From positions 1 to 13,237 of the forward strand of contig JAOQAA010000336.1 in the NCBI GenBank assembly GCA_025963815.1: a DNA stretch of 13,237 nt, read 5' to 3'. This stretch comes from Capsulimonas sp. Lineage in GTDB: Bacteria > Armatimonadota > Armatimonadia > Armatimonadales > Capsulimonadaceae. Position numbers and translations under genes: made by a program. How positions within the stretch are numbered: the first letter of the stretch is position 1; each line of letters opens with the position of its first letter. A model generated the notes under the pieces. The model was not told where the DNA came from and did not search any database. It was given only the letters and a program-made list of their open reading frames with translations. Shown piece after piece: positions 1-8,497 of the stretch.

Positions 1-409
1 TGAAGCCGTAGCTCTCATGCAGGCCGACACTCGGATCATTGGGCATCGTGATTCCCGCTTAAGCCTTGTAAAATCCCTGCAGCTCGAGCAGCGCGAACAA
101 CGCCTTGTAGAGCCTGCGGCCGATCCCCTGACGGTGGTGCGCCGGATCGAGGTAGATCGAGATCGTCACTGCCCATTGGTACGCCAAACGATCGCGGTGA
201 CGGCTGGCGTACGCATAACCGGCGACCACGCCGTCACGCTCGAAAATCAGCCACGGAAACTCACGCGTCACACGGGCGATATCGTCGCGCAAAACATCGA
301 CCGGCGGCGGCGTTACATCGAATGTGATCGCCGATTCCGCGCAGATCGGGCCATAGATTCGCAGGATATCTTCCGCGTCGTCCGGGGTGGCCAGTCGTAT
401 AAGGTCCAT
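1..409 (-). pseudogene. GNAT N-acetyltransferase (phosphinothricin acetyltransferase-like), interrupted by an in-frame stop; continues past the left edge
   Basis: The ATG at 409-407 has a good ribosome binding site (AAAGGGG about 7 nt upstream) and lies 11 nt after the argC stop, so the two genes are probably cotranscribed. The first 116 residues are a typical PAT/Bar-like GNAT domain: an early RLATPDDAEDILRIY segment, ITFD near residue 29, and the acetyl-CoA loop R93-Q-G-I-G-R98. After GFYKA the frame meets TAA (61-59), but the same frame continues with AGITMPNDPSVGLHESYGF up to the window edge. That is the standard C-terminal part of this family, where a Tyr normally sits at the stop position (GFYxAYAGI). 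One base change in a Tyr codon (TAT or TAC to TAA) explains it. The family acetylates phosphinothricin, methionine sulfoximine or similar amines. A truncated product would lack the last strands of the fold and is unlikely to work. A sequencing error is possible. Confidence 0.85.
59..61 (-). other. In-frame TAA nonsense codon inside the acetyltransferase gene
   Basis: On the minus strand the codons read GGA TTT TAC AAG GCT TAA GCG GGA ATC. Family-like sequence continues in the same frame directly after the stop, so this is a substitution and not an indel. The expected residue is Tyr. Confidence 0.85.
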
Positions 410-420
410 ATCCGTCCCCT

Positions 421-1470
421 TTACGGCCACATGGCGGCCATGGTCAGGCCCGCCGTTTCGTCGAACCCGCACGCGAGGTTCATGTTCTGGATCGCCTGTC
501 CCGCCGCGCCTTTGACAAGGTTATCGATGGCGGAGATCACAATCACACGGTTGGTGCGCGTATCCACGGCGAGGCCGATGTGGCAGTAGTTCGTGCCTTG
601 CGTATGCTTCGTCGCCGGGAACTGGCCCGCGTCTAAAATCACCACGAATGGTTCGTCCGCGTAGTAAGTGTTAAAGAGGGCCTGAAGATCGCCCGCGTCG
701 GCCTTAAGATTGGCGTAGGCCGTGGTCAGAATACCCCGCGTGATTGGCGACAGATGAGGCGTGAACGTGATCAAAATCGGCTCACCCGCGATTTGCGAGA
801 GCGACTGCTCGATCTCAGGCACATGTCGATGGACGCCCGCAACGCCGTAAGGCTTGATGCTTTCGTTGACTTCGCTGAAGTGGAAGTCCAGGCCAAACTT
901 CGACCGACCCGCGCCGGAAACGCCGCTGTGGCTGTCGATAATAATAGACTTGCGGTCGATCAAGTCCGCCGCCAATAGCGGCGCCAGCGCCAGGGCCGCC
1001 GAAGTTGGATAGCAGCCGGGGTTCGCGATCAGCTTGGACGACTTGATCGCTTCTTTGTTGAGTTCAGGAAGACCGTACGTCGCTCGCTCGATCCAATCTT
1101 GAGCCTTATGCTCCGACTTGTACCACTGCGCGTAGTGCGCCGGGTTCTTCAATCGGAAATCCGCGCTGAGGTCGATCACCGGCTTGCCCGCCTCGATCAG
1201 CGCCGGCGCATGCTCCATAGCCAGCCCCGCCTCGCCGGCGAGAAAGACGACATCGCATCGGTCAATCGCTGTCTGCGAATCGAACTTCTCGCAGACCAAA
1301 TTGATCCGCTTCGCCACGCCCGGCAGCGCCGCCGACAGCGGCTTGCCCGCATATGTCCCCGACGTCACATACGTCAGCTCCACATTCGGATGGCCCGCCA
1401 GCAGCCTCGCCAGCTCGCCTCCGCCATACCCCGATACTCCCACAATCCCGACCCGCAATCGATCCGCCAT
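421..1470 (-). CDS. argC: N-acetyl-gamma-glutamyl-phosphate reductase
   Basis: ArgC catalyses the third step of arginine/ornithine synthesis: NADPH-dependent reduction of N-acetyl-glutamyl phosphate to the semialdehyde, in the cytoplasm. The 349-residue product is full length for the family. Visible landmarks are the Rossmann loop GIVGVSGYGGGEL (8-20), the catalytic Cys153 in ANPGCYPTSAAL, HSGVSGAGRS (181-190), the HRHVPE motif (214-219) and FTPHLSPITRGIL. The ATG at 1470 follows a GTGAGG ribosome binding site (1484-1479) with 8 nt spacing. The gene lies directly behind two intrinsic terminators and an Arg-rich leader peptide, so its transcription is probably attenuated. A PAT-like acetyltransferase follows 11 nt downstream. 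The other arg genes are not in the window. Confidence 0.97.
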   Translation of the reverse strand: MADRLRVGIVGVSGYGGGELARLLAGHPNVELTYVTSGTYAGKPLSAALPGVAKRINLVCEKFDSQTAIDRCDVVFLAGEAGLAMEHAPALIEAGKPVIDLSADFRLKNPAHYAQWYKSEHKAQDWIERATYGLPELNKEAIKSSKLIANPGCYPTSAALALAPLLAADLIDRKSIIIDSHSGVSGAGRSKFGLDFHFSEVNESIKPYGVAGVHRHVPEIEQSLSQIAGEPILITFTPHLSPITRGILTTAYANLKADAGDLQALFNTYYADEPFVVILDAGQFPATKHTQGTNYCHIGLAVDTRTNRVIVISAIDNLVKGAAGQAIQNMNLACGFDETAGLTMAAMWP

Positions 1471-1478
1471 TGGTTTTG

Positions 1479-1484
1479 CCTCAC
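1479..1484 (-). promoter_or_regulatory. argC ribosome binding site
   Basis: GTGAGG lies 8 nt before the argC ATG. It begins immediately after the T-tract of terminator 2, so the attenuator runs right up to the start of translation with no spare leader. Confidence 0.8.
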
Positions 1485-1542
1485 AAAATAAAAAAGAACG
1501 CCGCCCGCCGTCTTAACTGATTAAGACAAGCGCGCGGCGTTC
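1485..1542 (-). terminator. Terminator 2 of the argC leader (attenuator, promoter-distal)
   Basis: On the minus strand GAACGCCGC (1542-1534) pairs perfectly with GCGGCGTTC (1504-1496). The stem continues upward with further pairs, including GTCTTAA (1527-1521) with TTAAGAC (1516-1510) around a TCAG loop. TTTTTTATTTT (1495-1485) follows directly. This is a textbook Rho-independent terminator placed just before the argC ribosome binding site. Its 5' arm is also complementary to the 3' arm of terminator 1. Confidence 0.88.
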
Positions 1543-1551
1543 CCCAAAAGC

Positions 1552-1611
1552 AAAAAGCCGCGCGCCATCGAATTCCCATGCCCCCAGAGGGGAAGGGAAA
1601 TGGCCCGCGGC
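1552..1611 (-). terminator. Terminator 1 of the argC leader (attenuator, promoter-proximal)
   Basis: On the minus strand GCCGCG (1611-1606) pairs with CGCGGC (1562-1557), GCCA (1604-1601) with TGGC (1567-1564), and TTCCC (1599-1595) with GGGAA (1577-1573). The top contains a small CCCC/GGGG hairpin. TTTTT (1556-1552) follows, then GCTTTT. The 5' arm can pair instead with a segment inside the leader peptide coding region (1662-1647), which would prevent this terminator. Confidence 0.82.
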
Positions 1612-1678
1612 TCGATTAAATCGAGCCTTCTCCACGCTTAGCGTGTCGCGGACGCATTTCCCAAAACACGAACGCGAC
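1595..1678 (-). promoter_or_regulatory. Alternative pairing segments 1, 2 and 3 of the argC attenuator (pause hairpin and antiterminator)
   Basis: Segment 1, GTCGCG (1678-1673), lies in the Arg codons and pairs with CGCGAC (1650-1645) in segment 2. Segment 2, GGGAAATG-C-GTCCGCG (1662-1647), pairs with segment 3, CGCGGGCCATTTCCC (1609-1595), through 15 pairs with one bulged C (1654) and one G-T wobble (1652/1604). Segment 3 is the 5' arm of terminator 1, so 2:3 excludes the terminator (3:4). Two small hairpins sit between: CACGC-TAA-GCGTG (1645-1633), with the leader stop codon in its loop, and GGCTCGA...TCGAGCC (1627-1609). The pairing is read directly; the switching is inferred. Confidence 0.75.
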
Positions 1679-1715
1679 GACGCAGCGACAGGTTGTTTGC
1701 TGCTAGAAAAGACAT
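1638..1715 (-). CDS. Arginine-rich leader peptide of the argC attenuator (25 aa)
   Basis: This short reading frame runs from ATG 1715-1713 to TAA 1640-1638. It encodes MSFLAANNLS, then L-R-R-R-V-R (residues 11-16), and ends ...SATR. Five of 25 residues are Arg, with codons CGT, CGT, CGC and CGT clustered at 12, 13, 14 and 16. Such runs of the end-product amino acid are the hallmark of attenuator leader peptides. A ribosome stalled with Arg12/Arg13 in its active sites would cover RNA to about 1664, leaving segment 2 (from 1662) free to form the antiterminator. A ribosome that reaches the stop codon would cover segment 2 and allow terminator 1. No Shine-Dalgarno is seen; the ATG is 9 nt after a -10 element, so the mRNA may be leaderless. 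The function is inferred from position and architecture. The peptide itself probably has no other role. Confidence 0.75.
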   Translation of the reverse strand: MSFLAANNLSLRRRVRVLGNASATR

Positions 1716-1724
1716 TGTACGAAA

Positions 1725-1754
1725 AGAATACCCGGCCCAAAGTCGATTTGTCAA
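1725..1754 (-). promoter_or_regulatory. Predicted promoter of the argC leader
   Basis: A perfect -35 TTGACA (1754-1749), an 18-bp spacer and TATTCT (1730-1725) place the start near 1718-1715, at or just before the leader-peptide ATG. The -35 overlaps the stop codon that the upstream frameshifted gene would have. A second -10-like box, TACAAT (1719-1714), would start downstream of the ATG and so would not express the peptide; it has no good -35 at normal spacing. Confidence 0.6.
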
Positions 1755-2279
1755 GCTGTGTGAGAAGTTCTGGTACAGTCGCTTAAGAGCTGGTCAGTTG
1801 CCCCTCCGTCACACGGATGCAAATCACGCAATTGTTTTAAGACGGCCTGTATTTCCGGCGTTGGCGTTTCCGCCAGAGCCCAGACCATCGCTTCCCATTC
1901 CCGGTCGAAAAATCATTCACCTGCACCAAGAGAAGCGCCATCCAAGCGGCGCGAAGCGCTCCTGGGACTTCACCGCCCAACGCACTCAAAATGAGCAGGC
2001 GATAGTTGGGATTGTATAGCCGATCGCCGATTTCACTGACCGCTTCCTTGGGGTTACGCTGAAAATACGCCTTGACCACTTGAGACATCGCATGGCGATC
2101 CCAATCGTCAAAGTGGTAATCAGCGGGTGGCGGCAGTTGATCGTGCAGATCTATGTAGTCAAACAAGACGCCGATTTGCGTGATGGGCCATTTCCATGCA
2201 AACGCGGCGGCGTACTAAAGGGGGTGAAGTGATGGCTGGAATCCGTGATGTGCTCCAGCACGAAGCGCACATCATCCAT
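1751..2279 (-). pseudogene. Hypothetical protein gene broken by two -1 frameshifts
   Basis: Three consecutive frames join into one coherent protein of about 176 residues that I do not recognise. Frame 1 starts at ATG 2279 (MDDVRFVLEHITDSSHHFTPF) and would stop at 2151. Frame 2 carries FAWKWPITQIGVLFDYIDLHD and on to AAWMALLLVQVNDF. Frame 3 resumes as FDREWEAMVWALAETPTPEI and ends at TGA 1753-1751. The first shift is near 2200-2210 in a CCG-rich tract, the second at the T5 run 1912-1908, where six Ts would restore TTT TTC GAC. Without frame 3, frame 2 ends in an unnatural basic tail (GLWRKRQRRKYRPS). The restored protein is acidic, helical and soluble, with no signal peptide. Both lesions lie in repeats, so assembly error is as likely as real decay. 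A TATAAT at 2319-2314 could be its promoter. Confidence 0.7.
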
Positions 2280-2313
2280 GTTCGGCGAATTCTTTTGCGT
2301 CATAGATGGGAAC

Positions 2314-2319
2314 ATTATA
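2314..2319 (-). promoter_or_regulatory. Possible -10 box for the frameshifted hypothetical gene
   Basis: A consensus TATAAT lies on the minus strand 34 nt before the ATG at 2279, with no convincing -35 at normal spacing. It could equally be chance in an AT-richer intergenic stretch. Confidence 0.3.
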
Positions 2320-2429
2320 CATCTTCATGACAGTCTGGAAGCGTGTAGGGCTTCGCCTCGCCAGGCAAGCAGGATTTCTTGTCCCGCTGGCGGAACCTAC
2401 CACCATCACAGTTCTGGAAAGAGTCACTA

Positions 2430-3497
2430 TTGAAAACTGTCGCCCTCGCTGTCGCCGGAACGTTGATGACCGGCTTAATTATCCCCACGGCGCACGCCGC
2501 CGTCGCCAAGAAACACCCCGTGAAGAAGCCCGTGGTCGGAACCCGGGGAACACATCAGATGGCCGGAGGCGAAGGCGTTCTCGGAGAGACGTATACGCTC
2601 AAGGAAGGGCCAAATTTCACGCTGGTCAGCGCGGAATACAGCGTTGCGCGGATCAATCTGAGCGCGGGCAGTGTGCTCGTTCCCAAGGCGGACGAAAAGC
2701 TGCTCGTGCTGCACTTACGCGCCAAGAACCCGCGCAAGGACGATCTTTATCTGGGCGGAACGTTTGTCGGGTTCCAGACGGTCGCCATGGACGGCAAGAC
2801 CCGTGACGACAGCGAGTACATCATCCACAGCGGTGATAAAGACAGCCTCGCGGTCACGCTCAAGCCTGGCCAGGGGATCGACGATCTCGTAACCGCCTGC
2901 ATCGTGCCCGCCGCCGGCCCCGTCCCGAAGCTGATCCTGACCAAAGGCCGCGAAGGCACGAACGAAGAGGTGACGCGCTACTCGCTGGGGACAGCCCAGA
3001 ACCCGGTCAAGCCGCTTCCCGCGCCCATCGCCGATCCGGCCGACCCCAAGGGCGCGACGGCGCTCACGAGCGTGCCGGCCGTAATCGGGCAGACTTACCC
3101 CGCCGGGTTCTTCGACATCACGCTCGATTCACTTGCCTTCTCCACCGACAAAATCGGCGAAAACGATCCGCCGGAGGGAAAGCGCTGGCTTGTGGGGGTC
3201 ATGACGCTCAAAAACCAGTCGTTCCAGCACGTCTATATCTCGGCCGCCAACGCCTTCAGCATCTTCCTCAAGGATGAAGACGGCGACAAGACGACGTTCT
3301 CCGACTACCTGCGGCATGTCAAGACCGATGACAATACCGACAACAGCCCGGAATACGGCGAAACCGTCCGCACTCGCTTCTTCCTCGCCGTTCCCAAGGA
3401 CGGCGCGCCCGGCAAGACCCTCAGCATCGCGGAAAGCGTGGACAACAGCGGCGGCGTCTCCCGCGCGTATGTGTACGATATTTCGGGACTGAAATAA
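2430..3497 (+). CDS. Exported protein with two DUF4352-like immunoglobulin-fold repeats
   Basis: I chose the TTG at 2430 because GGAAAGAG lies 7 nt upstream and the resulting N-terminus is a clean signal peptide: MKTVALAVAGTLMTGLIIP followed by a cleavage site near AHA-AVA (residue 23). The frame stays open further upstream, but the added sequence (MSRWRNLPPS...) is not signal-like. The mature protein of about 330 residues holds two similar beta-rich domains. The first begins GETYTLKEGPNFTLVSAEYS and continues with KLLVLHLRAKNPRKDDLYLG; the second begins IGQTYPAGFFDITLDSLAFS and continues with KRWLVGVMTLKNQSFQHVYI. This pattern resembles the DUF4352/telokin-like fold of secreted and lipoprotein ectodomains. 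No catalytic motif is visible. The role is unknown, probably a periplasmic or cell-surface structural or binding protein. It ends at the shared inverted repeat 3502-3548. Confidence 0.8.
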   Translation: MKTVALAVAGTLMTGLIIPTAHAAVAKKHPVKKPVVGTRGTHQMAGGEGVLGETYTLKEGPNFTLVSAEYSVARINLSAGSVLVPKADEKLLVLHLRAKNPRKDDLYLGGTFVGFQTVAMDGKTRDDSEYIIHSGDKDSLAVTLKPGQGIDDLVTACIVPAAGPVPKLILTKGREGTNEEVTRYSLGTAQNPVKPLPAPIADPADPKGATALTSVPAVIGQTYPAGFFDITLDSLAFSTDKIGENDPPEGKRWLVGVMTLKNQSFQHVYISAANAFSIFLKDEDGDKTTFSDYLRHVKTDDNTDNSPEYGETVRTRFFLAVPKDGAPGKTLSIAESVDNSGGVSRAYVYDISGLK

Positions 3498-3574: not shown

Positions 3575-5023
3575 CTAAGCGGCGAGCGGGAGATCGTCCC
3601 AGCCTTCGCTCTCATCCTGCGTCTCCTCGACGACGCGCAGGAAGATTTCCGTCAGCGTCGGATCGAAGTGCGTTCCCGCGAGGCCGCGAATGTGGGCGCA
3701 GACGCGGTCGTGGGCCCAGGCTCTGCGGTATGGGCGGTCGGAGCGAAGGGCGTCCCAAACGTCCACAAACGCAAAAAGGCGAGCGGCGAGCGGGATCTCT
3801 TCGCCGCTCAAGCCACGCGGATAACCGGTTCCGTCCCATTTTTCGTGGTGATAGCGTGGGATGTCCAGCGCCGGCTCTAAGAACTCAATCGGCTGCAGCA
3901 TCTGAACGGCGTATTCCGGATGGAGGCGCATCACAACCCATTCGGCTTCGGTCAAGGCGCCGGGCTTGAGCAGGATTTCGTCAGGGATGCCCATTTTACC
4001 GATATCGTGCAGCAGGGCGCCATGCCGCAGAGTATTCAGCTGGTCTTCCCCCATCCCCAGCGCTTGCCCCATGCGCAGAGTGAGTTCGGTGACGCGCCGG
4101 CAGTGTCCTTCGGTCTCGTGATCGCGCATTTCCAGCGCGCGGCTCCAGCCTTCGATCGTGGCGTTGTAGGCCACCAAAAGCTCGGCCGTGCGAAGGCTGA
4201 CGCGTTCTTCCAATTCATTGTTGGTTTGGCGCAGCTCTTCATGCGCTTTGCGGAGCGCCTCAGCGGAGGCGAGACGCTCCGCCCCAGCGATCAGAGCGTT
4301 GCGCTGATAGGTGTAAACGCAAATCGTGACCGCCAGCGACATCAGCAGGGCTACTCCAAGTCCTGCCCACACCGCGCGGCGCAGATGCGACAGGTTATCC
4401 GTATACTGGGTCGCGTTCATGTCGACACCGACAATTCCGACACAGTGTCCATGAGAATCGCGGATCGGCGCATATCCGCTCATAAACGAGCCCCAGCGAT
4501 CGGGATAGACTTTGGTGTCGGCCCCAACGATCCCCGTCCGAAGAGCGCGGAGCATCGGCGGCGGCGCCTCGGGGTACTCCTCCATGATATGCGATTTGTC
4601 ATCGACGCCATCTCCATCGGCGTCCCCCGCAGGCGTGGGATCCAGAACGAAGAAGACTTTATTGTTGCGCAGGACGCACGTATAAATGAACTTCATATCG
4701 CTGCTGGCGATCAGCATCGCTTGCAGCGGAGCGATGGCGCGCCGGTACTCGGGCGTCGATTCCTGAGCAGGCAAGATGAAATCTTTGTGGCGATCCGCAT
4801 CCACCACGGTCGCCGCCATCGCCGCCGTGTGGCGAAGCTCGGCGCGCATGCCATCGTAAGCGGCGGACAGTGAGCTGTAGTAAAGCGCGAGACTGCTAAC
4901 GCAGCTGGCCACCAGCAGGACAAAGCCGGCAAGAAGCGCCGCCTTGTACGGAGCCACCGACGTGACGCGTTGTTTGAAGCGACGCCGCCGCAATTTGTAA
5001 GTAGTGCTTAAGAACTTGTCCAT
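3575..5023 (-). CDS. Membrane-bound HD-GYP domain protein (predicted c-di-GMP phosphodiesterase) with extracytoplasmic sensor
   Basis: The 482-residue protein has a basic N-terminus, TM1 (about 27-48), an extracytoplasmic sensor region (about 49-216), TM2 (about 217-240), a coiled-coil linker (about 245-282) and an HD-GYP domain. The sensor has Cache-like features: FIYTCVLRNNKVFFVLDPTP, an acidic DADGDGVDD loop (134-142) that looks like a calcium-binding loop, and GIVGVDMNA just before TM2. The catalytic domain shows HDIGKMGIP (339-347, metal ligands H339/D340), H368 and HHEKWDGTGYPRGL (392-405, GYP at 400-402). These match active enzymes that hydrolyse c-di-GMP to pGpG/GMP. The ATG at 5023 has only a poor ribosome binding site. 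It follows the GGDEF gene by 25 nt, so the two are probably cotranscribed and the second may depend on translational coupling. Confidence 0.92.
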   Translation of the reverse strand: MDKFLSTTYKLRRRRFKQRVTSVAPYKAALLAGFVLLVASCVSSLALYYSSLSAAYDGMRAELRHTAAMAATVVDADRHKDFILPAQESTPEYRRAIAPLQAMLIASSDMKFIYTCVLRNNKVFFVLDPTPAGDADGDGVDDKSHIMEEYPEAPPPMLRALRTGIVGADTKVYPDRWGSFMSGYAPIRDSHGHCVGIVGVDMNATQYTDNLSHLRRAVWAGLGVALLMSLAVTICVYTYQRNALIAGAERLASAEALRKAHEELRQTNNELEERVSLRTAELLVAYNATIEGWSRALEMRDHETEGHCRRVTELTLRMGQALGMGEDQLNTLRHGALLHDIGKMGIPDEILLKPGALTEAEWVVMRLHPEYAVQMLQPIEFLEPALDIPRYHHEKWDGTGYPRGLSGEEIPLAARLFAFVDVWDALRSDRPYRRAWAHDRVCAHIRGLAGTHFDPTLTEIFLRVVEETQDESEGWDDLPLAA

Positions 5024-5048: not shown

Positions 5049-6761
5049 CTACGCCTCTTTGAGAGAAGCGGACATTCGATCCATCTCTTCCGGCGCGGAG
5101 CCGGTTTTCGGTCTTGCTAAAACCACGCGGTTTCTGCCCGCGCGCTTCGCCTCGTAAAGGGCCTGATCCGCACTGCTGACAAGCGCTTCCGGCGTCTCCC
5201 GGTCCACGGCAAAAGCGCTGACGCCAATGCTTACGGTGATCGGCCGGTGCGCGAATGCGTAACATTCGATCGAGACGCGAATGCGTTCGGCCATGGTCCG
5301 CGCGCCCTCCAAATCGTTGAGCGGCAGCAGCATCGCGAACTCTTCGCCGCCATAACGCGCAACCACATCCGTATCGCGCGCGCTCTCCTCCAGCAGCTGA
5401 GCCACTTCCTTGAGAACCGTATCCCCCGCCGGATGACCATAGGTATCGTTGTAGCTCTTAAAATGGTCGACATCCATCAGCAGAAGCGCGAAGGGAATCC
5501 GATAGCGCGCGGCGCCCGCGCAGGCTTCGGTCATTCGCTCGTAAAAGACCCGATGGTTTACCAATCCCGTCATGCCGTCCGTCATCGCCAGACTTTCCAG
5601 TCGCGCGTTGGCGGCGGCCAGTGATGTGTTTCGCGTCTCAATTGCATCCTGCGCCGACTGAAGCTCCTGGTAAGCGCCATGCAGCTTTCGGTTCAGCCGG
5701 GCGTTGTCCAGGATAGCGATGATCTGGCGGAATAGCAGCAGCACCACCAGGAGCGCCGCCCCCAAGTACACTCCATATTCCAGCATGGAGGGTTCCCGGC
5801 CACGAATGCAGTAAACCACGAGACCGGCGATGGCCGGGAGCAGCGCATACGGCAGCAGCGCCAGCCAAACCGCTCCGTCGGCCGGCTGCAATTTTGGGGC
5901 TTCGTCCTCATCATACGGAGACAGACCGTCGTGGCTCAGCGAAGAGCTTCGAAGCAGTGTGGCGGCAAGTCCGATCAGCAGATACGCCAGAGGCCAAAAA
6001 ATATCCACCACCTTGCCGGTCACGTATGTCTCGTGCAGGGTCTGATATGCAAAGACGATATCAGCAATGACGATGCTGAGCATTCCCAAAACCATCAGCG
6101 CGCCCGCACTGCGCGGAATTGTACGACGCTCCTGAACGCAGAGGATCAGCACACAGAACAAAAGGATCAAGTCGCCGATGGGATACCCGGCGCTCAACAA
6201 TGTTCCAAGCGTCGATGCCTGAGATGTGAGCACCGTCGGCCCCAGCACAAAGTACCAGCTGCAAGTGAAGGCGCACGTCATAATCAGCATGCTATCCAGC
6301 AGCACACGCAGGCGCAGAGTCGCCGAGACGGGACGCGATGGCATCAGCAAAATCCCCGCCAGCAGCAGCGGGTACTCTGTCAGATAAGCAATATCCGCCA
6401 CCGAGGGAAAAGGCGGTTCTTTCAAAACCTGTTCGTAGTAGGCCCAGATCCCCTCACCAATACAATCTCCCAGCGCCCCCAACGCAATCATCGTACAGGC
6501 GATGCGGATGGCTCGGAAGCGTTTTGATTCCTGCCCCCTACCTTTGCGACGTCCCGCTAGAAGATCGCGCGCAATCCAGACCAGCGCCGCAAGCGGCGCG
6601 ACTACCGAGGCGCCGTTGTCAAACGCAACACGCAGCGTTCGCGAAATCCCAGGCGTCACAAGCGCCAGCAATAGCACGCCGATAAAAACGGCTGAAAAGA
6701 TCAACCGCTGGCGAAATATCGTATCGATCGAATCCGTGTTGGCGTGGCGTGGCGTAATCAT
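5049..6761 (-). CDS. Membrane diguanylate cyclase (GGDEF domain) with multi-helix membrane sensor
   Basis: The 570-residue protein makes c-di-GMP from two GTP. Residues about 20-350 contain about ten hydrophobic helices, including PPFPSVADIAYLTEYPLLLA (116-135), a signature of an integral-membrane sensor common in front of GGDEF domains. A coiled coil (about 352-390) leads into the GGDEF domain, which starts at MTDGMTGL (393-400). MDVDHFKSYND holds the metal-binding Asp430. The active-site GGEEF is at 471-475, and the inhibitory I-site RxxD is present (R462-D465, five residues before GG). It therefore looks catalytically active and subject to product inhibition. The ATG at 6761 has GGTGAGG about 14 nt upstream, a loose ribosome binding site. 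It sits 51 nt behind the small membrane protein gene and 25 nt ahead of the HD-GYP gene. Confidence 0.95.
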   Translation of the reverse strand: MITPRHANTDSIDTIFRQRLIFSAVFIGVLLLALVTPGISRTLRVAFDNGASVVAPLAALVWIARDLLAGRRKGRGQESKRFRAIRIACTMIALGALGDCIGEGIWAYYEQVLKEPPFPSVADIAYLTEYPLLLAGILLMPSRPVSATLRLRVLLDSMLIMTCAFTCSWYFVLGPTVLTSQASTLGTLLSAGYPIGDLILLFCVLILCVQERRTIPRSAGALMVLGMLSIVIADIVFAYQTLHETYVTGKVVDIFWPLAYLLIGLAATLLRSSSLSHDGLSPYDEDEAPKLQPADGAVWLALLPYALLPAIAGLVVYCIRGREPSMLEYGVYLGAALLVVLLLFRQIIAILDNARLNRKLHGAYQELQSAQDAIETRNTSLAAANARLESLAMTDGMTGLVNHRVFYERMTEACAGAARYRIPFALLLMDVDHFKSYNDTYGHPAGDTVLKEVAQLLEESARDTDVVARYGGEEFAMLLPLNDLEGARTMAERIRVSIECYAFAHRPITVSIGVSAFAVDRETPEALVSSADQALYEAKRAGRNRVVLARPKTGSAPEEMDRMSASLKEA

Positions 6762-6812: not shown

Positions 6813-7091
6813 TTACCATGGGTATGCGAGGGTCCGATGGCGTGCGACGAGGAGCCAGATCTGCCAGGCGAACACGGCGCCCCAGAAGATCGTAACCCAC
6901 GGGGGCTTGGCCCAGCATCGCCATTCCTGGACGCCGCGAGCGGAGGCGAGAAGATAGAAGAGGGTGGCGAGGCCGCTGAGAACGAGGAGAGAAAAGTTCT
7001 GAAAGATCAGCACCAGAAATGCGGCTTTGCAGAAGGTGAAGGCCCAGCCTTCATAGGCGCGACCCTGACGCTGGCGGTCCCATTCGCTCAT
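6813..7091 (-). CDS. Small hydrophobic membrane protein, translationally coupled to the radical SAM gene
   Basis: The start ATG (7091-7089) overlaps the TGA stop of the radical SAM gene (ATGA), a classic coupling arrangement, and AAAGGCGC lies just upstream. The frame is open further upstream, but that region is the radical SAM gene's own C-terminus read in another frame. The 92-residue product begins MSEWDRQRQGRAYEGW, has a long hydrophobic stretch (about 17-50, one or two helices) and a second one (about 65-83, rich in Trp: PWVTIFWGAVFAWQIWLL), and ends in a short basic tail. I do not recognise a family. The tight linkage suggests it works with the radical SAM enzyme or the Lgt-like protein at the membrane, for example as an anchor or partner; this is inferred from position only. 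Confidence 0.75.
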   Translation of the reverse strand: MSEWDRQRQGRAYEGWAFTFCKAAFLVLIFQNFSLLVLSGLATLFYLLASARGVQEWRCWAKPPWVTIFWGAVFAWQIWLLVARHRTLAYPW

Positions 7092-8497
7092 TGGGAAGCG
7101 CCTTTCGCCAGCATCGGCAGGGCGATTCCCGCCGCGCGGGGACGACGCGCACGATGCAGAATATTGTATTCGCAGAACGAAATCGCTTCTCCCGTCTCCG
7201 TGAGGATCTTGGTGCAGCACTGATCGATGCGCCGCCGATCGTACGTATGGGCGTCCATGAACGGCTTGACCACGATCCGGAAGACGCGCCGGCCCATCAG
7301 CTCGGGCTTACCGATCAAGGGCAGGACGTCGCGCAGTCCGCCCCGGAGGAACAGGATCGCCAAGTCTCGCAGCGCGCGGCCTCCGCGCAGGTGAACGGTG
7401 TCCGACCAAACACGCCGCGCGGCGCCGCCAATGATCCCGGCAAAGCTGATCCGATCGGCAAACAAGTCCAGATACTGGGCGACGTCTAAATGGCGCGGCA
7501 GCGGTGTGATCGTCTCGCGCCGATCGTCGAGAAAGCCATAGGTGAGCGCGCTGCAGTCGGGATGGCTGCACGGCAGGCCGACGAAATCCGAGCGCCGCAG
7601 CGCGCCATCCGTCTGCGCCTCGAGAAGGGCGAGCACATCAGTGAGCGTCAGGCGCTCGGGCGCGGCGTAGTCGTCGTGCTCATAACGTCCGCTGCTCATG
7701 ACCGGCTGAAAGTTCAGGCCGTTGACATGATCGTTGGCGAGCGCAAAACGATACAAGTCGCCGATCTCGTCATCGTTGACACCGCGCTCCACCGTAGGCA
7801 CGAGGGTGACGAAAAGGCCCGCCTCCCCCGCTTTTTTGAGCGCCAGCGTTTTTTCCGCGCGCAAGTCTCGGCCATAAAGGCGTTCATGGACCTCTGGCCG
7901 GAAACTGCTGAAGGAGAAAAATAGTTCGACCTTGTCGCGATGGCGCCCCAGCGTCGCGCAAAGTTCATCGCTCTGCGCAATCCGCAGACCGTTCGTATTG
8001 ACGAGAACACGCCCAATGGGATATTCGAGCGCCAGATCCAGAATTTCGGCGAACTGGGGATGTATGGTCGGCTCGCCGCCGCTGAGCATAAGCAGGTCCA
8101 AGCCCGACTGCCGCCGGAAGAACTCATCCAGCCGCCTCCGCGCTTCGTCCACGGTCATGAAGTCGTGACCATGCGCGTCGGCATAGCACGTGGGGCAGCG
8201 CAGGTTGCAGGCGAGGGTGATTTCCAGCAGCAGCACGCAGACCGGAGGGCCTGAGATTGGGTCGCAGACGGTATCTCCGCCGCAGCAGCCGCCACCCACG
8301 CGCGGCGGCGTGTACTGGCGCAGGCGTCGATACTCCCCGGCGTCCGACGCCAGAAGCGTCCGACTTGCGCCATGTCGCGGGCACAGGCTTTCCATCCAGA
8401 TGCGCCCGTCATCCTCGGTGAGAACGGCGGGGACATCGCGCAGGCACTGCGGGCACAGGCTTTGGGTTTCTTCGTTCCAGGGTGTTGTCGGCGGCAT
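7088..8497 (-). CDS. Radical SAM enzyme of the Tes/MJ0619-like type (candidate lipid or lipoprotein modification enzyme)
   Basis: The 469-residue protein carries the radical SAM cluster motif C97-NLR-C101-PT-C104, the SAM-binding SGGEPT (139-144) and a TIM-barrel-like NTNGLRI (167-173). The N-terminus has a zinc-ribbon-like CPQC (15-18) paired with CPRHG (39-43), and a Cys cluster follows (C71, C72, C78). After the barrel come LPCSHPDC (308-315), CC (427-428) and FCEYN (441-445). These additional cysteines could bind auxiliary iron-sulfur clusters. This layout recalls the archaeal MJ0619/tetraether lipid synthase (Tes) group, which couples alkyl chains of membrane lipids; assignment to that group is from memory of the motif order. 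The ATG at 8497 has AGGAG about 10 nt upstream. The gene sits in an operon with an Lgt-like membrane protein, which also suggests a lipid-related substrate. The exact reaction cannot be told. Confidence 0.85.
   Translation of the reverse strand: MPPTTPWNEETQSLCPQCLRDVPAVLTEDDGRIWMESLCPRHGASRTLLASDAGEYRRLRQYTPPRVGGGCCGGDTVCDPISGPPVCVLLLEITLACNLRCPTCYADAHGHDFMTVDEARRRLDEFFRRQSGLDLLMLSGGEPTIHPQFAEILDLALEYPIGRVLVNTNGLRIAQSDELCATLGRHRDKVELFFSFSSFRPEVHERLYGRDLRAEKTLALKKAGEAGLFVTLVPTVERGVNDDEIGDLYRFALANDHVNGLNFQPVMSSGRYEHDDYAAPERLTLTDVLALLEAQTDGALRRSDFVGLPCSHPDCSALTYGFLDDRRETITPLPRHLDVAQYLDLFADRISFAGIIGGAARRVWSDTVHLRGGRALRDLAILFLRGGLRDVLPLIGKPELMGRRVFRIVVKPFMDAHTYDRRRIDQCCTKILTETGEAISFCEYNILHRARRPRAAGIALPMLAKGASQ

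Follow-up and report, generated by a model that had tools for sequence, protein, structure and literature searches.

We analysed a stretch of 13,237 nucleotides (nt) of Capsulimonas sp. DNA (contig JAOQAA010000336.1, phylum Armatimonadota), hereafter the window, and focused on the leader of argC, which encodes N-acetyl-gamma-glutamyl-phosphate reductase. Sequence and modelling indicate that this leader very probably places arginine synthesis under ribosome-mediated transcription attenuation of the trp/his type. It combines a promoter, a short open reading frame (ORF) with a run of arginine codons, and six RNA segments that can form either two tandem intrinsic terminators, T1 and T2, or alternative helices. 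These parts, their conservation and the alternative pairings emerge from sequence and computation. Attenuation of this kind has long been known; as far as we could see, the amino acid concerned and the lineages are apparently new, as is a nearly leaderless start joined with two terminators in tandem. What is known of arginine synthesis in bacteria comes mainly from the ArgR repressor, and part of a phylum with ArgR in 0 of 61 genomes appears to sense arginine by translating Arg codons. If true, this would explain pathway control in Armatimonadota, add arginine to the amino acids under ribosome-mediated attenuation, and extend classical attenuation to lineages for which we found no report. It would also offer natural variants of one switch, nearly leaderless or with tandem terminators, for studying ribosome position versus RNA folding.

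The first-pass annotation of the window had proposed a TTGACA-18-TATTCT promoter followed by a 25-codon frame with LRRRVR at codons 11-16, and both were present on re-reading (Table 1). Between 1300 and 2400 this promoter was the only promoter-like site; shuffling expects 0.7 such sites there, so the match alone is not significant. The promoter is also kept in G001, the only same-genus genome sampled, whose ArgC is 95% identical to that of the window (genomes, loci and families are labelled G, L and f, and the window belongs to G000 in family f1). When the two were compared in 20-nt bins, identity rose from 25-50% in bins upstream of 1790 to 60-75% in the next two (1790-1751) and 70-100% in the remaining stretch to argC; the lowest value within the leader (70%) fell in bin 1571-1590, which contains part of the T1 loop. 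Transcription is predicted to start near 1718. As the leader ATG lies 9 nt downstream of the -10 box, the ORF is predicted to be nearly leaderless, with a 5' untranslated region (UTR) of approximately 3 nt, and the ATG is found 9-10 nt past the -10 box in six f1 genomes, including that of the window, and in G006. Across five family members, two codons of the R-R-R-V-R run vary, both synonymously, and in alignment A1 the leader ORF carries a 3-nt in-frame indel.

Table 1 Features of the argC leader and of the genes that follow it in the window.
Feature	Position	Strand	Description	Basis
Promoter	1725..1754	-	-35 TTGACA 1754-1749, 18-nt spacer, -10 TATTCT 1730-1725	sigma-70-like match
Leader peptide ORF	1638..1715	-	25 codons, MSFLAANNLSLRRRVRVLGNASATR, then TAA	ORF re-read in the window
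Predicted control codons	1668..1682	-	Arg12 CGT, Arg13 CGT, Arg14 CGC, (Val15), Arg16 CGT	simulated ribosome stalls
Segment 1	1664..1678	-	GTCGCG 1678-1673, extended by CGTGTTT 1670-1664; partner is segment 2	folding
Segment 2	1645..1662	-	GGGAAATGCGTCCGCGAC; partner is segment 1 or 3	folding and relatives
Segment 3	1595..1611	-	GCCGCGGGCCATTTCCC	motif and pairing in relatives
Segment 4	1557..1577	-	3' arm of T1; alternative partner is segment 5	folding
Terminator T1 (predicted)	1546..1611	-	hairpin 1611-1557, -35.8 kcal/mol, then TTTTTGCTTTT	hairpin-plus-U-tract prediction
4:5 antiterminator helix (predicted)	1525..1569	-	1569-1557 with 1538-1530 and 1528-1525	folding
Terminator T2 (predicted)	1485..1542	-	hairpin 1542-1496, -32.4 kcal/mol, then TTTTTTATTTT	hairpin-plus-U-tract prediction
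argC	421..1470	-	N-acetyl-gamma-glutamyl-phosphate reductase	TIGR01850 equivalog, 436.8 bits against a cut-off of 233.6
GNAT acetyltransferase frame	59..472	-	overlaps the end of argC; 137 codons, TAA at 61-59	

The leader RNA from 1718 to 1485 folds to -115.9 kcal/mol, compared with -81.0 +/- 4.5 kcal/mol in dinucleotide shuffles (z -7.7; 0 of 200 shuffles as low). Its six segments can pair as 1:2, 3:4 (T1) and 5:6 (T2) or, alternatively, as 2:3 and 4:5. Helix 1:2 by itself amounts to -15.3 kcal/mol, and the RNA between the end of segment 3 and the T2 loop folds to -32.9 kcal/mol, a small upstream hairpin included. Both predicted terminators lie between the leader ORF and the first structural gene, with U-tracts at 1556-1546 (T1) and 1495-1485 (T2), and the T2 hairpin ends 25 nt before argC. 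Four segments and a T-tract had been described previously; these are present, but the leader has six segments and two tandem terminators, of which T2 had been missed together with the 4:5 helix and the nearly leaderless position of the ATG. For this region only an RNA 3' end near 1485 had been named, the position at which the U-tract of T2 ends. The segments were found where the first-pass annotation had placed them, except that segments 2 and 3 each extend 2 nt further at one end, and the 15 pairs it gave for helix 2:3 became 14 in the energy model. A simple terminator pattern scan of the window listed neither T1 nor T2.

We then surveyed argC upstream regions across the phylum, in which argC was matched in 196 of 291 genomes at E <= 1e-60. 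Upstream DNA was read for 125 argC loci from 125 of these 196 genomes (45 from the searches and 80 fetched), mostly the higher-scoring among the matches listed, with some skipped. Regions of at least 200 nt (123) entered the promoter-anchored and family counts, and regions of at least 400 nt (121) entered the promoter-free count. Of the 62 promoter-bearing regions (123 searched), 24 contained an ATG ORF anchored to the promoter with at least 4 Arg in 6 codons, and 32 contained one with at least 3 Arg; 100 shuffle rounds of the DNA downstream of the promoters gave 0.3 regions (maximum 2) and 3.0 regions (maximum 8), respectively. On the antisense strand, again with a promoter required, none of 13 regions had an Arg leader. 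No amino acid other than Arg reached 4 in 6 codons in the 62 promoter-bearing regions, the next being Ala with 3 of 6 in five regions. When no promoter was required, at least 4 Arg in 6 codons occurred in 26 of 121 sense regions versus a shuffle mean of 6.8 and 9 antisense regions. Allowing GTG and TTG starts gave 27 of 123 regions (at least 4 Arg) and 35 of 123 (at least 3), and the latter were distributed over 10 of the 35 families sampled, namely f1 (6/7), f2 (7/8), f9 (9/13), f24 (3/10), f11 (3/3), f21 (1/1), f42 (1/1), f43 (2/2), f44 (1/1) and f45 (2/7). In these counts G006 appears as a miss, its leader being separated from argC by a GNAT gene and located more than 650 nt upstream; all seven sampled members of the window's family, G006 included, nevertheless have the Arg codon run.

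Outside the Arg run, leader peptides diverge between families, as in LRRRVRVLGNASATR (f1), RRRVRRPSEVTG (f2), SRRRRERFGI (f9) and TRVRRR at the stop codon (f11). The leader peptide of L032 (uncultured Chthonomonas) is identical to that of G080. CGT made up 60 of the 125 Arg codons in the leader Arg runs (31 leaders), compared with 34 of 220 in ten ORFs of the window, and tRNA charging or RNA pairing may be the cause of this excess. Upstream of argG (30 loci), two ORFs had at least 4 Arg in 6 codons (G023 and G001), with no consistent leader. Two further features of the surveyed regions were recorded. Many leader peptides of f11, f21 and f42-f45 finish with R-x-R-R or a similar string, directly before the stop codon or close to it, and among loci L181, L187, L191, L197, L163, L172, L164, L194, L195 and L198 several carry a GCCGCC-type hairpin with a T-rich tail.

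The two alternative helices around segment 3 are conserved along with the Arg run. The segment 3 core GCCGYGG recurs in members of f1, f9 and f24 (GCTGTGG in G079). In leaders of these families with the core, segment 2 spans from approximately 28 nt before to 14 nt after the peptide stop codon, and segment 4 ends in GCGGC, ACGGC or similar, followed by a T-rich stretch. Two tandem terminators were also predicted in the f9 members G077, G075 and G078. In alignment A2, which comprised 13 sequences and left out G001, G070, G013, loci L005, L011, L014 and L016, and leaders without the motif, helix 2:3 was 95.2% paired versus 32-60% for slid partners, and helix 3:4 was 91.1% paired versus 37-46%. 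Pairs changed on both sides numbered two in 2:3 and one in 3:4. We also exchanged helix partners among 13 of the 39 collected leaders, excluding 19 without GCCGYGG, the close copies L002, L116 and L206, and the same four loci, which match the motif without a convincing T1 arm. Swapping in the partner from another species weakened the duplexes on average from -21.0 to -16.1 kcal/mol (2:3) and from -23.7 to -18.8 kcal/mol (3:4), and for each helix 0 of 20,000 permutations were as good as the own partners, with the same outcome in a nine-sequence subset. A covariance model, R1, searched against the 291 phylum genomes gave a single match in each of 14 genomes, always the known argC leader; it reached no new family, and all of these genomes but G001 were in its training set. 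The first-pass annotation had named related genomes without Arg codons or the alternative pairings as grounds for rejecting an attenuator. The comparison of argC upstream regions spoke for the attenuator: the Arg run is conserved (24 of 62 regions and all seven f1 members) and both pairings are kept, although compensatory changes inside the conserved cores are few.

To relate these pairings to ribosome position, RNA left uncovered by a simulated ribosome was folded, the ribosome being a simple mask that reaches 12 nt past the first base of the A-site codon. Five f1 leaders with six segments were used (G000, G001, G004, G002 and G006). With the ribosome at the stop codon, all five formed T1 when folded to the T1 end and T2 when folded to the T2 end. 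A stall at any of the first three Arg codons in the run left segment 2 uncovered, and in all five leaders 2:3 and 4:5 were formed before segment 6 exists. A stall at the fourth Arg codon yields T1, and codons 12-14 are therefore the predicted control codons. A broader simulation covered 22 of the 39 collected leaders, comprising 16 with the motif and six from a Melainabacteria class that were placed by their own terminator; L005, L011, L014 and L016 were left out here as well, for the reason given above. In all 22, at least 5 pairs joined upstream RNA and segment 3 before segment 4 emerges when the ribosome was stalled at Arg 1 or 2, and at least 5 pairs of T1 were formed when it was at the stop codon. 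These results agree with the spacing proposed earlier, in which a stalled ribosome frees segment 2 and a ribosome at the stop codon covers it.

In the mechanism that we propose, the start site, translation of the leader ORF, termination in the cell, the order of folding and the response to arginine are all predicted. Transcription would begin near 1718, and a ribosome would initiate on the almost leaderless ATG. When charged tRNA-Arg is sufficient, the ribosome would get to the stop codon (1640-1638) and cover segment 2, whereupon 3:4 would form T1 and 5:6 would form T2, and the transcript would stop before argC. When arginyl-tRNA is short, the ribosome would be held at Arg12-Arg14 and cover segment 1. 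Segments 2 and 3 would then pair on emerging, which would block T1 and leave segment 4 free to take segment 5, and the 4:5 helix, once formed, would block or delay T2. With both terminators avoided, argC and the following genes (GNAT, and argJ in G001) would be transcribed, so that a low level of charged tRNA-Arg would turn argC on. Alternatively, T2 may be the only attenuator, with T1 serving just as a pause hairpin.

Several results weigh against this interpretation, beginning with the equilibrium folds. For RNA that reaches the T1 end, 3:4 is the helix preferred at equilibrium in G001 and G004 and at two of the three stall positions of G000; of the 22 leaders with the ribosome held at Arg 1 or 2, only six favour 2:3 over 3:4. 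After segment 6 has emerged, T2 is favoured over 4:5 under stalling in four of the five f1 members, G002 being the exception. In G000 and G001, 4:5 is predicted before segment 6 is made although the ribosome is at the stop codon (11.0 and 11.7 pairs), and at this ribosome position at least one upstream pair with segment 3, local hairpins included, persists before segment 4 in 16 of 22 leaders. As regards super-attenuation through the 1:2 hairpin, T1 was predicted without a ribosome in G000, G001 and G004, but G002 and G006 were predicted to read through instead. Because equilibrium often favours the terminators, the read-through model rests on the order of folding, with 2:3 and 4:5 presumably forming first in the stalled state. 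The covariation evidence is also thin within the conserved cores, since column shuffles matched the number of doubly changed pairs in 169 of 500 cases for 2:3 and 248 of 500 for 3:4; they reached the covariation score in 19 and 15 of 500, respectively. Restricting the swap test to the variable part of segment 3 weakened it, with 238 and 23 of 20,000 permutations as good, and 1542 and 98 in the subset. In a single-sequence test of dual pairing the window was one of 14 leaders, out of 39, that scored 0 bases, and in 11 of 39 no more than 5 of 100 shuffles were as good. This statistic, which depends on details of the minimum-energy fold, counts as a negative result. Finally, 25 of the 35 families sampled had no Arg leader by our rule (e.g., f18 0/13, f30 0/11 and f5 0/7), and the absence of ArgR does not predict a leader, given that ArgR is missing also in those families without an Arg leader that were tested.

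The literature was considered through open-licence PMC papers, and the papers cited below are represented by parts of their text, to which the statements drawn from them are limited. No arginine-synthesis attenuator was found among them, which is weak evidence of absence because only open-licence PMC papers were covered; arginine-codon leaders were found for other genes alone, namely speF and rbf. The earlier statement that no ribosome-mediated arginine control is well described has to be qualified, as Arg-codon leaders are known for speF (PMC6386406) and rbf (PMC13009471). In the Salmonella speF leader, consecutive Arg codons pause the ribosome at low arginine and expression goes up (PMC6386406). 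Its leader ORF, orf34 (speFL), resembles the argC leader in these consecutive codons but controls an ornithine decarboxylase gene through Rho, RNase G and unfolding of the ribosome-binding site; the excerpt states that its authors found no intrinsic terminator, and the peptide has a HIRRT...HIMM core (PMC6386406). By eye, this core is absent from the peptides that we surveyed, and the gene downstream is argC. In Staphylococcus aureus, Arg codons of the rbf leader sense arginine shortage (PMC13009471). Its leader ORF, rbfL, shares Arg codons with the argC leader but differs in that low arginine blocks translation of a biofilm regulator and in its use of the rare codons AGA and AGG (PMC13009471). 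Neither speF nor rbf is an arginine-synthesis gene, and in the text available neither leader is a classical attenuator with an intrinsic terminator (PMC6386406, PMC13009471).

Classical attenuators are closer in design. Those of trp, leu, ilv, thr and phe in Proteobacteria and Actinobacteria share with the argC leader a leader peptide with cognate codons, an alternative antiterminator and an intrinsic terminator, and differ from it in amino acid and lineage. The his attenuator has alternating segments A-F. In Salmonella and Escherichia coli it is also alike in its cognate codon run and in an extra hairpin between the pause hairpin and the terminator (PMC1183508), and the his operon of S. typhimurium is described as controlled by attenuation only (PMC1183508). 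It differs in that the codons are for His and not Arg, whereas the argC leader has an ORF predicted to be nearly leaderless, tandem U-tract terminators and an unrelated lineage. Mycobacterial polycysteine ORFs, which act as attenuators, are likewise leaderless short ORFs with a run of one amino acid; this is cysteine, however, and they regulate translation of the downstream genes (PMC9031893). For Actinobacteria, the part of the survey consulted reports Trp, Leu, Ilv and Cys leaders and no conserved RNA structure upstream of arginine operons, and mentions T-boxes as RNA control of arginine genes in other species (PMC1262725). According to a part of another paper, leader-peptide systems were known to its authors, ermC apart, only in Proteobacteria and Actinobacteria before their own Firmicutes example (PMC2965389).

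Other explanations of the leader must be weighed against attenuation by Arg codons. The Arg residues might act as peptide and not as codons, the leader sensing a different stalling agent such as macrolide-like drugs at R-x-R or a small molecule bound by the peptide. An Arg-Leu-Arg motif is described in antibiotic-stalled leader peptides (PMC8632094, cited from part of its text), and R-x-R is present in many of the surveyed peptides. The controlled gene is, however, one for arginine synthesis, the peptides of different families are unlike outside the Arg run, and the Melainabacteria-class leaders have four contiguous Arg, all of which make this explanation improbable in our judgement. We regard as slightly less probable again that the target of the stalled ribosome is translation or decay of argC mRNA, instead of or beside transcription. 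Such outcomes exist for the Arg-codon leaders of speF and rbf (PMC6386406, PMC13009471), and the whole-leader minimum-energy folds of G000 and G001 without a ribosome place the argC ribosome-binding region in a duplex with the first leader codons; nevertheless, the leader ORF and argC are separated by two U-tract terminators, and the ribosome-binding region is outside T1, T2, 2:3 and 4:5.

A simpler possibility is that T1 and T2 are constitutive partial terminators that merely lower argC expression or end stray transcripts, the Arg ORF being a by-product of GC-rich conserved RNA. CG-rich stems are easily read as Arg codons, as seen in the promoter-free counts, in which antisense regions and shuffles were far from empty, and many simulated states favour the terminators at equilibrium. 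With a promoter required, however, the sense count stood at 24 against 0.3 in shuffles and none antisense, frame and Arg residues are kept through synonymous changes and an in-frame indel, and Arg runs recur in families whose leader RNA is without the segment 3 motif, so that we consider a by-product very unlikely. ArgR is the commonest known control of arg genes. Control of argC by ArgR, by another DNA-binding repressor, or by a T-box or riboswitch would make the leader irrelevant. A search for ArgR (PF01316) found it in none of the 61 phylum genomes tested, families without the leader included, compared with 9 of 14 controls (8 over the cut-off); estimated completeness was 69% for G000 and 95% for G001. 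T-boxes for arginine genes do exist (PMC1262725, in part), but a search of the window against Rfam gave no match at the gathering thresholds and two sub-threshold hits in the leader, both unrelated. We therefore rate such control as the least probable of these explanations.

Attenuation by Arg codons might extend beyond the phylum. The set from other phyla held 79 control loci besides L032, 78 of them long enough, and in it an Arg leader was found in 2 of 22 promoter-bearing argC regions (78 searched); Thr reached 4 in one region. The two loci, L062 (Cyanobacteria bacterium SZAS LIN-3) and L075 (Candidatus Obscuribacterales, Melainabacteria), belong to the same class, and (N/S)RRRR(D/E)FL.NSG leaders were found in six of 29 inspected argC loci of that class (L062, L075 and four further genomes). 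Among these six leaders, the Arg codons differ by synonymous changes alone, and amino acid changes are seen at two of the six codons that come next. Downstream lies a terminator of the form CCCCGGG...CCCGGGG or similar, and ACTCGGGG, directly after the Arg run, can pair with the 5' arm of the terminator (L238), with 7.8-8.9 expected pairs in all six. Modelling suggests that they are minimal three-segment attenuators. Of 60 genomes tested from this class, two had ArgR above threshold, and one of these (G348) is without such a leader; G291 and G292, the only two of the six leader genomes among the 60 tested, had no ArgR. Separately, L246, L252 and L253 of the same class carry a short ORF, ISRRRPGL...RPGADMA, starting approximately 174-186 nt upstream of the argC match, possibly a further form of leader. 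On balance, we lean towards the view that many Armatimonadota lacking ArgR, and a Melainabacteria lineage, routinely regulate arginine synthesis through Arg-sensing attenuation, an old and repeatedly rebuilt system. It would take several forms, with tandem terminators in f1 and part of f9, single terminators elsewhere, three segments in Melainabacteria, and a nearly leaderless ORF in f1.

Downstream of the leader, the window's contig ends 58 nt beyond the stop codon of the GNAT frame, the G001 counterpart of which is longer (210 amino acids). The G001 operon has the order argC - GNAT - argJ, and in G006 another GNAT gene stands between the leader and argC. GNAT frames were located at 59-472 (-) in the window, 1819-2451 (-) in L207 and 943-1482 (+) in L206. 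For the GNAT protein after argC, the nearest NCBIfam models were ArsN1b/PPT acetyltransferase, all below cut-off. The GNAT proteins near argC might be acetyltransferases of the pathway.

Some observations concern the wider genomes and the rest of the window. The pattern TTGACA-N17-19-TANNNT followed by an ATG within 4-34 nt outnumbers the reversed pattern in G000 (148 versus 4), G001 (272 versus 4) and G003 (83 versus 16), which suggests from sequence that many 5' UTRs in G000-G006 are short or absent; as a test of the leader question this pattern was of little use. At 3575-5023 and 5049-6761 (-), the window encodes adjoining HD-domain (HD_5) and GGDEF proteins, possibly cyclic-di-GMP enzymes. 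Further along, at 7088-8497 (-), lies a gene for a radical SAM protein with an N-terminal zinc ribbon, for which the nearest models, TrsS and tetraether lipid synthase, were below cut-off.

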